Source: Alistipes sp.
GTDB taxonomy: Bacteria > Bacteroidota > Bacteroidia > Bacteroidales > Rikenellaceae
Direction: 5' to 3'
Length of the DNA stretch: 64,000 nt
Assembly (NCBI GenBank): GCA_017504485.1
Contig: JAFVRC010000004.1
Span: 1-64,000, forward strand
In this document: positions 40,557-49,545 of the stretch, piece by piece
Numbering within the stretch: the first letter of the stretch is position 1
Layout of the letters: each line of letters opens with the position of its first letter
Program-made: the position numbers and the translations under genes
The notes under the pieces: generated by a model
Seen by the model: only the letters and a program-made list of their open reading frames with translations
What the model was told of the DNA's origin: nothing
Database searches by the model: none

Positions 40557-40585
40557 ATCACTTGTGCAAACCAAATGTAGAAGAG

Positions 40586-40885
40586 ATGAAAAGGATTTTT
40601 ATATTGTTGTTGGCAGTTGCTTTCTCGACGATGTGCGCGTTGGCACTTCCAAAGGGTAAGTATTCGGATGGTGGTGACTCGACGATTATAGTGACCGACA
40701 CATATATTTATCTATACATAGGTCAGTATAGTGCCGGCTCATTTACAATTGCAGATGTGGACCACGAGGCGCAGACATTTGTTGCCATCATGAGTGATGG
40801 TGGCCGCGTTCAGGGCCGATGGTATTACAAGGATGGCTCCCTCTATGTGAAGATAGGCAGCAGAACCTTGAAATATTGCGATTAG
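40586..40885 (+). CDS. Small exported protein of unknown function (99 aa)
   Basis: 99 residues from ATG 40586. Signal peptide to about residue 20 (FSTMCALALPKG). The mature part looks all-beta: STIIVTDTYIYLYIGQ, SFTIADVDHEAQTFVAIMSDGG, VQGRWYYKDGSLYVKIG, ending YCD. One cysteine remains in the mature chain, two before the end. It could be a small lipocalin-like or protease-inhibitor-like barrel, but I do not recognise it. Codon use is AT-richer than in the metabolic genes around the cassette. Confidence 0.65.
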   Translation: MKRIFILLLAVAFSTMCALALPKGKYSDGGDSTIIVTDTYIYLYIGQYSAGSFTIADVDHEAQTFVAIMSDGGRVQGRWYYKDGSLYVKIGSRTLKYCD

Positions 40886-40917
40886 TTTGATTATTAACTA
40901 CAAAAAAGAACGACAAG

Positions 40918-41259
40918 ATGAATAAGATGTTTTTAAGTGCTATTGCCCTGCTTTTGTCGGTGGTGGCATATGCAGATGACACCAAGACGTGCCGGGTTCT
41001 AGAGACCGACGGCTCGGTTGAGGTTAGCGTTATGGTTACGGATGAATCGACGGGCAAGTGCATTGTTTCGTTTTCGAATGATACGGAGCGTAACGTAAAT
41101 GTTCGCTATGTGGTTTATGATGAAGTTTCGTGCAAGCGTTTGCCGGGCTCAAAATTGGTCTATTCCAATAGCGAGGCTACGAGAGAGGTAGTTTTTGGTA
41201 TCCCGGTCAAGTCCGGACGTGTGAAAATCACATCCTTGACAGGTGAAAAATGTAAGTAA
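40918..41259 (+). CDS. Small exported protein of unknown function (113 aa)
   Basis: 113 residues. Signal peptide to about residue 19 (LLLSVVAYA-DD). The mature part has four cysteines (TKTC, TGKC, EVSC, GEKC), which could pair in two disulfides, and an Ig-like pattern of strands (VEVSVMVTDE, CIVSFSND, VNVRYVVYDE, TREVVFGIPV, GRVKITSL). The family is not recognised. Third gene of the cassette. Confidence 0.65.
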   Translation: MNKMFLSAIALLLSVVAYADDTKTCRVLETDGSVEVSVMVTDESTGKCIVSFSNDTERNVNVRYVVYDEVSCKRLPGSKLVYSNSEATREVVFGIPVKSGRVKITSLTGEKCK

Positions 41260-41270
41260 CGGCAGATGTT

Positions 41271-41621
41271 ATGAAAAGGATAATATTGACATTGGTTTCT
41301 ATCGTATGCCTTTGCGCGGTTGTGTCGGCAAATTATCGTTACATAGGATGGGATTTTGTATGCAAAGAGGGCGGCGAGGTTGTCGGCCGAATGCATTTCT
41401 CGCCATCCGATGCACAAAATGGTACATTCCGGGTGGAGTATCGCGGAGAGGTTATATCGGGTAGGTATGAGATGGAAAGACCGGTAAGTAAAGGTGAAAG
41501 CGTGCCGATTACTTACTACTCTTCGGATGGACGACAGACTCGTGGTGACCACGTTTGGGCATTGAACGGGGATAGGCTTGTCTCGATTGATGGGCTCTGT
41601 TTTTATCCAATAGGCAGATAA
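41271..41621 (+). CDS. Small exported protein of unknown function (116 aa)
   Basis: 116 residues. Signal peptide to about residue 20 (CLCAVVSA-NY). The mature chain is beta-rich with many aromatic residues (YRYIGWDFVCKEGG, MHFSPSDAQNGTFRVEYRGEVISGRYEME) and one cysteine in the FVCKEGG segment plus one near the end (GLCFYPIG), so a disulfide is possible. Its opening RYIGWDF resembles the aromatic-rich style of the last cassette protein. It starts 11 bases after the preceding gene. Confidence 0.65.
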   Translation: MKRIILTLVSIVCLCAVVSANYRYIGWDFVCKEGGEVVGRMHFSPSDAQNGTFRVEYRGEVISGRYEMERPVSKGESVPITYYSSDGRQTRGDHVWALNGDRLVSIDGLCFYPIGR

Positions 41622-41649
41622 TATTAAACTTCTAAACAAAAACTTAAAA

Positions 41650-41985
41650 ATGAAAACGAATACGATTATTTTGGTAGTTATCGCTATGTTGTTGGGCGTA
41701 TTTTCGGCCAATGCAACAGCGACAGAGTCGGCCACTTCTGTAAATGTAGAGAACGCAACGGAGATTGCTCCTTCTTACAGTTTTGTGGCAAACATAACAG
41801 CTTATAAATTCAGCGGACGTGGAGGCATTAGCATTAAGACTCAAAGCTCCGCGAAGTTGTACGAAAAAGATGGTAATTACTACGCTTTTAAGAATGGTAA
41901 CTACTATCGCGTAAGAAGCTCAAATCGTGACGGTTACGACTATATGTTCTATGATGATTACGGAACATGGTATTTTAACTATTAG
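41650..41985 (+). CDS. Small exported Tyr-rich protein of unknown function (111 aa)
   Basis: 111 residues. Signal peptide to about residue 23 (VFSANATA). No cysteine in the mature part. The C-terminal half is loaded with Tyr, Asn and Gly (LYEKDGNYYAFKNGNYYRV, DGYDYMFYDDYGTWYFNY), giving a repeated YEKDGNYYAF/KNGNYYRV unit that looks like a beta-hairpin repeat. Possibly a surface-binding or self-assembling peptide; that is speculation. It closes the cassette before a strong terminator. Confidence 0.65.
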   Translation: MKTNTIILVVIAMLLGVFSANATATESATSVNVENATEIAPSYSFVANITAYKFSGRGGISIKTQSSAKLYEKDGNYYAFKNGNYYRVRSSNRDGYDYMFYDDYGTWYFNY

Positions 41986-47474: not shown

Positions 47475-47505
47475 AATGCTGTAAGGGGTGCTTGCCCCGA
47501 TATCT

Positions 47506-47551
47506 AAAATGAGATGGTTGCACGCAGTGTTGGGTGCAACCATCTCATTTT
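47506..47551 (+). terminator. Rho-independent terminator of the mmd operon
   Basis: An 18-bp perfect stem (47506-47523 with 47534-47551), core ATGAGATGGTTGCAC / GTGCAACCATCTCAT, ending in TTTT. Confidence 0.85.
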
Positions 47552-47662
47552 CTACTAGGTAGTAGCGTCGGAAAAAAGAGTGCGAAAAGTGAAATTATAT
47601 GTTCGAAGTGTAGCATTTCTCGAAAATATGATTAACTTTACAATCTAAAAACTACAAGCCCG

Positions 47663-49186
47663 ATGAAATACGATGTCTTTATAAGCTACTCGTCGCACGA
47701 CCAGAAAGTTGTCGAGGGGCTGTGTGCCTATCTCGAATCGCAGAAGATACGCTGCTTTGTCGCCTATCGCGATATACTGCCTACTGATGTGTGGGCATCG
47801 GTTATTGTCGATGCTTTGGAGCAGAGCCGTATGATGGTTGTGGTCTTTTCGCCGCACTTCAATCTGTCGCGGCAGGTAGATCGCGAAATCAGCTTGGCCA
47901 GCGAGGCTATGAAGCCGATACTTACGTTCCGTATATCGGACGATGCCTTCAAGGGAGTCAAGAAGTATTATCTCGAGAATATAAATTGGATAGATGCCTT
48001 TCCGGACCCTGAAATGGCATTTGGCAGCGTCGCGCGACATATCGTGCAATTGCTCAATATATGTCCGACGGAGAACGCCGAAGTGCAATCTCCGCAGGTG
48101 CCATCCGTAGTGCCGCCGCTTGTTCCACAGGAGCCCGTTTCGCAGCCGACTCCCGTGGTGCCGCCGCCAATACCACCAATGCCACCAATGCCACCAACGC
48201 CGCCAACGCCACCAGCATCGCCCGTAGAACCTCCGCAGAGAGAAACAAAGGTGTCGCGACAGTCGCTCGTAAGGTGGGTTGTGCTTGCAGCAGTGGCTAT
48301 AGCGCTTATCGTCGGAGGCGTTGTGGTGGGCCGATTGCTGCATAGCCGGCCTACCGCCGTGCCGCAGGCGCAAGTTGTCGAGGAGCTGAAAGCAGAGGTG
48401 GTGATTGCGCCCGATACCTCTATTATAAATAATATAGAGGCTCCCGATTCGCTCCCTGTTGCCGCCGTGGATGTTGCGCCGGTAAAGGTCGAGGAGGCTG
48501 CGCCGCAGCCGAGCGCGAAGGCCGCACCAGCACAGAATTTGGATGCCACACCTCGCCCACGTCGTGCAGCGTCCAAGGTCACCATTGAGCCAAAATCTGT
48601 CGTAGTGCCAAAGGACGGCCCATCGGTCGAGGATCGTGTTGCCAAGATGGTGCTCGAAGGCAAGGGACGCAATGGCCTCTATGAGGTGGGTTACTACTTC
48701 AACCGCGACGGCAAAGAGGGCATCGTCTTTGAGGTTACGCAGGATGGTCGCCACGGCAAAATCATATCGATGCAGCAGATGCATGTTGCGTGGGCGCAGG
48801 CCTCGGCGGTCAATATGCCTACAAATGCCGTGTCGCGCACTCGCGGAGATGAGAATGCCGCTATGATAGAGAGGGTGGGGCAATGGGCAACGCTCTTTCC
48901 GGCATACGCTTGGTGTCGCTCGCTTGGTGCCGATTGGTATCTGCCGTCCATCGATGAGCTGCGCCTCTTTACGATAAATGATGAAGTGCGTTATAAGGTG
49001 AATGCCACATTGGGTGCCAAGCAGTGCGATGCAATTATAAATATAGGCGACCATGGCTTCTATTGGTCATCGACCGAGGGTGCGAGGGTGCAGTCGAATG
49101 TGTGGGTTGTCAATATGTATGACGGTAAGCTGCGTAGCGCAAACAAGGTGGGCAGTAACTATATTCGCGCCGTGGCACAATTCTAA
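47663..49186 (+). CDS. TIR domain - transmembrane - DUF1566 protein
   Basis: 507 residues. TIR domain (about 2-130): YDVFISYSSHDQKVVEGL, RCFVAYRDILPT (BB-loop region) and SRQVDREISLAS with Glu75 where NAD+-cleaving TIRs have their catalytic Glu. A Pro-rich linker (about 143-192) leads to one membrane helix (about 205-223). A second Pro/Ala linker precedes a C-terminal domain (about 335-507) of DUF1566/Lcl type: DWYLPSIDELRLF, FYWSSTEG and WVVNMYDGKLRSANKVGSNYIRAVAQF. No signal peptide, so TIR should be inside and DUF1566 outside the inner membrane. Inference: an outside signal triggers TIR, which cleaves NAD+ or makes a signal nucleotide. A weak box (TAACTTTA, 47633-47640) precedes. The RyR gene starts 7 bases after. 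Confidence 0.85.
   Translation: MKYDVFISYSSHDQKVVEGLCAYLESQKIRCFVAYRDILPTDVWASVIVDALEQSRMMVVVFSPHFNLSRQVDREISLASEAMKPILTFRISDDAFKGVKKYYLENINWIDAFPDPEMAFGSVARHIVQLLNICPTENAEVQSPQVPSVVPPLVPQEPVSQPTPVVPPPIPPMPPMPPTPPTPPASPVEPPQRETKVSRQSLVRWVVLAAVAIALIVGGVVVGRLLHSRPTAVPQAQVVEELKAEVVIAPDTSIINNIEAPDSLPVAAVDVAPVKVEEAAPQPSAKAAPAQNLDATPRPRRAASKVTIEPKSVVVPKDGPSVEDRVAKMVLEGKGRNGLYEVGYYFNRDGKEGIVFEVTQDGRHGKIISMQQMHVAWAQASAVNMPTNAVSRTRGDENAAMIERVGQWATLFPAYAWCRSLGADWYLPSIDELRLFTINDEVRYKVNATLGAKQCDAIINIGDHGFYWSSTEGARVQSNVWVVNMYDGKLRSANKVGSNYIRAVAQF
48164..48217 (+). repeat. Six 9-bp tandem repeats inside the TIR gene
   Basis: Six units of consensus CCACCAATG/CCGCCAACG (48164-48217) encode Pro-Pro-[Ile/Met/Thr/Ala] repeats in the linker. 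Unit count could vary between strains without breaking the frame. Confidence 0.7.
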
Positions 49187-49193
49187 TTACTCT

Positions 49194-49484
49194 ATGGAAC
49201 ATAAAAAATACATACCGCAGCCGATAGATGTTGAGGGTGTGGAACTGCCGACCGAACTCTATGAGTTGGCCGAGCGTATTGCCGAGAATGTTCACGAGGT
49301 GTGGGCCGCAGGGCGTGTGTTCGAGGGGTGGAGTTATGGCCCTGAGCGCAACGACCACTTGAAGCAGCACCCGGGAATAGTGCCCTATGACGAGCTCTCC
49401 GAGCAGGAGAAGGAGTACGACCGAGCCACCGCATTCAACACACTGAAACTGATAGTATCGCTCGGCTTCAAGATAGGTAAGTAA
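49194..49484 (+). CDS. RyR-domain protein
   Basis: 96 residues from ATG 49194. Nearly the whole protein is one ryanodine receptor (RyR, PF02026) domain: PQPIDVEGVELPTELYELAERIAENVHEVWAAGRVFEGWSYGPERNDHLKQHPGIVPYDELSEQEKEYDRATAFNTLKLIVSLGF, with the family's N-x-H-x-x-W-A, GW-YG-R-D/N and HP-x-x-VPYD-L signatures. Soluble and cytoplasmic. Some bacterial RyR domains are proposed to bind nucleotides in conflict or stress systems. It follows the TIR gene by seven bases, so the two form one operon. Inference: it senses or handles the product of the TIR domain. Confidence 0.85.
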   Translation: MEHKKYIPQPIDVEGVELPTELYELAERIAENVHEVWAAGRVFEGWSYGPERNDHLKQHPGIVPYDELSEQEKEYDRATAFNTLKLIVSLGFKIGK

Positions 49485-49502
49485 GCGAGATGACGATACA
49501 CG

Positions 49503-49545
49503 AAGGGCTGTCGCGGCACACCTTGTCGGACAGCCCTTGTTTTTT
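49503..49545. terminator. Terminator after the TIR/RyR operon
   Basis: AAGGGCTGTC (49503-49512) / GACAGCCCTT (49529-49538), followed by GTTTTTT. Converging aminotransferase gene begins its end at 49552. Confidence 0.8.

Follow-up and report, generated by a model that had tools for sequence, protein, structure and literature searches.

The locus studied here raises the question of whether a gene for a TIR protein with a predicted membrane helix (gene A) and the gene for a small RyR-domain protein directly behind it (gene B) work together, and if so, whether the RyR protein could act on a product of the TIR protein. Both genes lie in the window, the 64,000-nucleotide stretch of an Alistipes sp. 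genome which was analysed (contig JAFVRC010000004.1, positions 1 to 64,000, forward strand). The genome itself (G000) comprises 1.92 Mb in 48 contigs and is 82% complete.

Organisation of the TIR and RyR genes

Genes A and B are real genes. The first-pass annotation had described a 507-aa protein with a TIR domain, a Pro-rich linker, one membrane helix and a DUF1566 domain, with the start of a 96-aa RyR protein seven bases after its stop codon, and this was confirmed by open reading frames, Pfam and hydropathy. The features of the locus are as follows:

47506..47551, plus strand: terminator-like inverted repeat downstream of the preceding gene (repeat search, fold)
47663..49186, plus strand: gene A, TIR - Pro-rich linker - membrane helix - Lcl_C, 507 aa (ORF and Pfam)
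47675..48013, plus strand: TIR domain, aa 5-117 (Pfam TIR_2, E 3.2e-19)
47885-47887, plus strand: codon of the putative catalytic Glu75 in the TIR domain of gene A (Glu column in aligned TIRs)
48080..48253, plus strand: Pro-rich linker, about aa 140-197 (sequence)
48275..48331, plus strand: predicted membrane helix, aa 205-223 (hydropathy script)
48677..49183, plus strand: Lcl_C (DUF1566) domain, aa 339-507 by our own profile, aa 418-504 by Pfam
49194..49484, plus strand: gene B, stand-alone RyR-domain protein, 96 aa, with the H34, W37, H59 and D76 pocket (Pfam, alignment)
49503..49545, plus strand: terminator-like hairpin and T tract 3' of gene B (RNA fold of 49500-49545)

The inverted repeat behind the preceding gene has 21-nt arms which are 95% complementary (-31.5 kcal/mol for the fold of 47500-47560), and the hairpin behind gene B (-25.0 kcal/mol) is followed by TTGTTTTTT. 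With an inverted repeat on one side and a hairpin plus T tract on the other, A-B looks like a transcription unit of its own. The shared terminator proposed earlier was recovered by folding, but not by a consensus terminator scan with a loop limit of 8, which returned nothing at A-B, this hairpin included. No promoter for A-B was found: two σ70-like sites were detected, against an expectation of 2.0, and each of them is on the minus strand. Elsewhere in the window, positions 40562-41985 (plus strand) contain four successive small ORFs of 107, 113, 116 and 111 aa with signal-peptide-like starts.

Gene A is a candidate NADase TIR protein

Both Pfam matches of gene A (TIR_2, and Lcl_C with E 1e-9) are above cut-off, and a single hydrophobic helix follows the Pro-rich linker. 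Glu75, which we take to be the catalytic Glu of NADase TIR domains, lies in a column that is E in 84/88 aligned TIR domains from RyR loci, in agreement with its earlier designation as the candidate catalytic residue. With the TIR_2 domain and the Glu column both present, gene A would belong with the NADase TIRs. A profile of 22 TIRs, consisting of gene A and 21 TIRs from RyR loci (14-48% identity to gene A), matched the SARM1/TIR-1 NAD hydrolases best in PDB (E about 1e-28), with AbTIR at 4e-13, a likeness consistent with a putative NADase activity of gene A; the first matches of the gene A TIR alone (aa 1-147) are animal Toll, TLR and MyD88 TIRs, not NADases.

The Lcl_C domain was also considered as a hypervariable DGR target, and this was rejected: neither a template-like repeat of 48640-49190 nor RVT_1 was found in the 82% complete genome, where the best other DNA match to this region is 78% over 50 bases. 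A viral origin was considered as well: searches for viral relatives gave two for the TIR query, five for the RyR alignment and none for Lcl_C with a single-sequence query. Within the genus of the window, Lcl_C is joined to different N-termini, as a second Lcl_C protein (L084:1498-3495) has a protein-kinase-like N-terminus and a Pro-rich linker in front of this domain.

Gene B has the pocket residues of the phage protein RyDEP

Gene B matches the PF02026 RyR profile over positions 1-90 of 91, and so has a complete domain (E 1.1e-33, 115.8 bits against a cut-off of 27.4); no output domain was found by Pfam and no match by PADLOC. Residues 5-96 align to PDB 3NRT (E 1.4e-35), a putative ryanodine receptor compared here by its solved structure only, which is presumably the B. 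thetaiotaomicron RyR named without an entry code in the RyDEP preprint. In that 2026 preprint (PMC13232231), RyDEP, or gp78 of phage DyoEdafos, is a homodimeric phage PF02026 protein which hydrolyses TIR-made 2'/3'cADPR, with H75 and D117 as catalytic dyad, W78 against the adenine and H100 at the phosphates. The eight homologues tested there are all phage proteins; six bind 2'/3'cADPR signals, two do not and none cleaves them, and for two a sponge action that blocks Thoeris was demonstrated (PMC13232231).

We used the gp78 sequence, which is identical to PDB 35tm over residues 2-138, as alignment reference, and found H34, W37, H59 and D76 of gene B in the columns of H75, W78, H100 and D117 with identical spacing. 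Gene B is thus like RyDEP a small stand-alone PF02026 protein with the same four pocket residues, but differs from it in being a host gene adjoining a TIR gene, whereas RyDEP is a phage gene inside a NARP1 operon; identity is also low (29.5% over 73% of gene B), and gene B is a putative binder. The earlier suggestion that the RyR protein may bind the TIR product has in this way gained outside support from the preprint (PMC13232231) together with matching pocket residues, albeit that the four residues guarantee neither binding nor cleavage, given two non-binding and no cleaving proteins among the eight homologues.

Conservation of the pocket differs between RyR classes. In the 106 stand-alone RyRs the residues equivalent to H75, W78, H100 and D117 are present in 106, 106, 87 and 105 proteins, respectively, compared to 26, 26, 10 and 25 of the 26 RyRs from sigma-operons (where T replaces H100 in 14), and 33, 34, 35 and 31 of the 35 channel-type RyRs, while all four are present in the small remaining class (5/5). 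These counts bear on an antidote model, in which gene A would be a toxin or suicide NADase and gene B would bind the TIR protein and not its product. An arrangement of two genes 7 bases apart, the second of them small, would suit such a pair, and TIR NADases can be effectors, but the near-invariant pocket of the stand-alone RyRs argues for a small ligand and RyRs are also present where TIR is absent, making an antidote distinctly improbable. The small ligand could also be ATP, ADP or NAD+, with the RyR protein reporting the energy state and the TIR domain serving as a non-catalytic scaffold, and human RyR3 R12, solved with the ATP analogue AMP-PCP, uses the corresponding residues (PMC13232231). 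We consider energy sensing improbable in view of the conserved Glu75 column and the strong linkage of RyR to TIR genes.

RyR and TIR genes are linked across genomes

RyR and TIR genes lie near each other more often than chance would predict. In a family set of 200 genomes, RyR was found in 36, TIR_2 in 57 and both in 31 (Fisher p 9e-16), and 17/59 RyR matches lie within 3 kb of a TIR match versus 0.72 expected from TIR density with an assumed 2.1-Mb genome, rising to 28/59 within 5 kb. As a defence-island control we used HSDR_N, for which 5/150 of the matches listed are within 3 kb of a TIR and 6/150 within 5 kb; the 3-kb contrast with RyR (17/59 vs 5/150 among matches listed) has p 6e-7, and remains when restricted to TIR-bearing genomes (17/51 vs 5/51 among matches listed, p 0.007). 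In a phylum set of 296 genomes, RyR was found in 22 and TIR in 126, with TIR present in 19/22 RyR genomes (counted by eye; p 2e-5), the RyRs being mostly partial-domain matches in long open frames. None of these co-occurrence and linkage tests takes kinship between genomes into account, and as the genomes are related, the independent events are fewer than the counts. Genomes of family f18/g70 in the phylum scan contain open frames of ~880-920 aa in which two RyR repeats lie in tandem, which calls to mind the repeat pairs of animal RyR.

The RyR alignment was also scanned over species genomes, which gave at least 592 pattern matches, and the best 80 loci were kept. Most of these come from Bacteroidales groups, some are from Clostridia, and Myxococcota and planctomycetes contribute one each. 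A TIR is present in 37, a recurrent membrane protein in 57, both in 29 and neither in 15 of the best 80 loci. For the 103 non-redundant stand-alone RyRs from both locus sets, a co-directional run includes a TIR gene in 36, a channel-like membrane protein in 61 and either of these in 74. The TIR gene is immediately upstream of the stand-alone RyR gene in 14/103, from which the window is absent, apparently due to a spurious opposite-strand ORF that breaks its run. Two contigs from the viral collection (L181, L182) contain a stand-alone RyR which is 63% identical to the query and may be either phage-borne or the result of misbinning.

The exact TIR-Lcl_C and RyR pair is rare

The stretches around the TIR_2 matches of the 200-genome family set were then scanned for TIR-Lcl_C and RyR, yielding 39 TIR-Lcl_C proteins in 20 genomes. 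Only 4/39 (the window, G080 twice and G091) have a RyR within 5 kb, compared to 22/92 other TIR ORFs, and in its strict form the A-B pair as a conserved two-gene system is thereby ruled out. The first-pass annotation had proposed testing whether co-occurrence exceeds chance; RyR-TIR linkage does, and the exact pair is found in a minority of cases. It had also suggested that the DUF1566 domain would face outside; gene A does have the helix, but a helix between TIR and Lcl_C is predicted in only 15/39 proteins, and an outward-facing DUF1566 domain is therefore not a rule of the family.

At the genome level the picture is reversed: RyR is found anywhere in the genome in 18/20 genomes with TIR-Lcl_C, versus 18/180 of the others (p 8e-14) and 13/37 of the other TIR-bearing genomes (p 7e-5). 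Cis-linkage is lower and co-occurrence at the genome level higher, two results which point in opposite directions, and the partnership of TIR-Lcl_C and RyR, if real, is mostly in trans, with the window as one of the few operon cases. Absence of the pairing from other genomes had been named beforehand as a refuting test, and the pairing is present in G080, G091 and L179. The Lcl_C profile found five proteins in the RyR loci examined, all of which are TIR fusions. One is that of the window. L054 (G080), from a different genus, has two, one of them a TIR-TM-Lcl_C protein immediately upstream of a stand-alone RyR. In L072 (G091) the fusion comes after a RyR-tailed membrane protein, and in L179 (Alistipes sp.) it lacks a helix between TIR and Lcl_C and has both a RyR and a RyR-tailed membrane protein upstream of it.

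The adjacency of genes A and B could be due to chance or to defence-island association, with no joint function, as is suggested by the 35/39 TIR-Lcl_C proteins without RyR within 5 kb and by L080 (G241:C21; 41% identity), which is closest to gene A among full-length orthologues and where the RyR of that genome is on another contig. We consider this highly improbable, as RyR lies close to TIR more often than the restriction enzyme control does among matches listed, TIR-Lcl_C and RyR co-occur in nearly all of the 20 genomes, and all five Lcl_C proteins which the profile found in the RyR loci examined carry a TIR domain.

RyR/TIR islands and channel-like proteins

Seen across genomes, the A-B pair is a small variant within a more extensive RyR/TIR/channel-like network. 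In several genomes an island order was found consisting of a channel-like membrane protein, an ECF-sigma-like gene (sigma70-ECF 35.3 bits, below the 42.9 cut-off), a RyR protein, variable cargo and a last stand-alone RyR. The island RyR protein combines a C39 peptidase match below cut-off with RyR and often a zinc ribbon, and its N-terminus may be anti-sigma-like; the cargo comprises TIR-TM proteins, PrsW and M48 (both above cut-off) and small conserved genes. Islands of this kind, with an A-clade RyR towards one end and a stand-alone RyR at the other, are present in L034-L035, L042, L045, L046, L054 and L059-L060; their sets of ECF-sigma-like, C39-like, PrsW, M48 and TIR-TM genes vary (L042 is without TIR).

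A tree of 131 RyR domains places 25/26 sigma-operon RyRs and eight short ones on one side with support 0.95 (A-clade), with gene B on the other side (S-clade). The genome of the window has a second RyR, of 139 aa with two C-terminal CxxC motifs (G000:C28:7937-9688 region), which falls on the A-clade side, has N in place of the phosphate-binding His, and is directly followed by a second, 437-aa TIR protein for which a membrane helix is predicted. This genome thus has one RyR of each clade in two places, each with a TIR-TM gene; it has no single island in which an A-clade RyR, TIR-TM cargo and a terminal S-clade RyR are brought together, as its RyRs of the two clades are on two contigs. The third TIR_2 match of the genome (G000:C3:71759-72082) is on a contig without a RyR match and has no Lcl_C.

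Two families of membrane proteins recur in RyR loci. Members of family 1 match BK, DMI1 and CASTOR weakly in the pore-RCK or RCK region (E 4e-4 to 1e-3), and 14/25 have Slo-like_RCK (best 3.7e-7); they differ from these RCK channels (BK/Slo1, DMI1, CASTOR) by a C-terminus which keeps the H-x-x-W, H, D RyR-like motif (L112:846-3005, L158:152-2761). In family 2, RyR is found in 11/20 and a weak TrkA_N match in 4/20. A TrkA label for the RyR-locus membrane proteins was dropped after Pfam on four of them showed no TrkA_N. From these weak matches, a channel function is likely for family 1 alone. No channel-like protein was found in the 82% complete genome of the window, nor an anti-sigma/C39 protein, the latter in a search without a positive control. 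In L077:1653-9862, on a Priestia plasmid, a stand-alone RyR directly follows a nucleotide cyclase gene, with a Pycsar-type effector and a TIR nearby.

These proteins would provide partners if gene B were a receptor, which when bound to the signal pairs with another RyR protein and relays it, here perhaps the RyR-zinc ribbon protein on C28 and elsewhere the RyR-like tail of a channel-like protein. Relatives do build RyR pockets into channel-like membrane proteins and sigma-operon proteins, the RyDEP homodimer (PMC13232231) makes mixed RyR dimers conceivable, and the window's own genome has a RyR of each clade. Nonetheless, a receptor is unlikely, as gene B has no output domain and its genome yielded neither a channel-like protein nor an anti-sigma/C39 protein in the searches described above.

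A proposed signal and its limiter

The reading we tentatively favour, at close to but short of an even chance, is that the TIR domain of gene A makes an ADP-ribose-type signal which the RyR protein of gene B binds and limits. It builds on features taken from the sequence, i.e. the domains, the gene order, the RyR-TIR linkage and the conservation of the TIR Glu and the RyR pocket. Gene A would sit in the membrane with its TIR domain in the cytoplasm, and a cue, perhaps sensed by Lcl_C, would trigger the TIR domain to convert NAD+ into an ADP-ribose-type signal, possibly of the 2'/3'cADPR kind. The co-expressed gene B may then bind this signal in its H34/W37/H59/D76 pocket, and buffer it as a sponge or hydrolyse it, by which the TIR system would stay silent until strongly activated and could be switched off again. 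Host ring nucleases limit CRISPR signals in a comparable manner. We infer that the downstream reader could be the RyR-zinc-ribbon protein on C28, beside the other TIR-TM gene. By analogy, the A-B pair may have a role in defence. Points against a signal with a limiter are the rarity of the exact pair and the many stand-alone RyRs accompanied by a channel-like protein but no TIR.

Thoeris consists of the TIR protein ThsB and the effector ThsA, with SIR2-SLOG, macro-domain and caspase-like effector types. The A-B unit resembles it in having a TIR beside a protein of a family which binds ADP-ribose signals, and in weak TIR-only matches to the ThsB and ThcB4 models, but the gene A TIR reaches 16.3 bits against a cut-off of 220, gene A carries a membrane helix and Lcl_C, and the unit contains no SIR2-SLOG, macro-domain or caspase-like effector, gene B being a RyR alone. 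We therefore place the unit with TIR/NAD signalling and not as a member of Thoeris.

Neither the RyR domain nor TIR signalling is new, and counter-defence by phage RyR proteins is known too. In our literature search we came across no paper that assigns bacterial RyR-domain proteins a host role, and among the papers listed PMC13232231 was the one to connect RyR domains with TIR signals, though an earlier description is possible. The same holds for a host unit of membrane TIR and RyDEP-like protein and for its tie to RyR-tailed channel-like proteins or sigma-factor-like operons, neither of which was found; a host RyR/TIR system is absent from the available parts of PMC13142454, PMC13174449, PMC10907252 and PMC8195603.

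On a wider scale, gut Bacteroidales may have a bacterial counterpart of the cADPR-to-RyR pathway, in which TIRs would make the signal, RyRs on RCK-channel-like proteins and sigma-factor regulators would read it, and stand-alone RyRs such as gene B would clear it. The window would then be a reduced outpost, without a channel found and with one RyR per clade at two places. We regard this as possible, if on the unlikely side. Should the A-B pair act as we propose, bacteria would themselves possess an off-switch or a receptor for TIR signals, from which the trick used by phage RyDEP may have come, while the RyR-tailed channel-like proteins would make the relation between cADPR and the ryanodine receptor, an old question, testable in bacteria.
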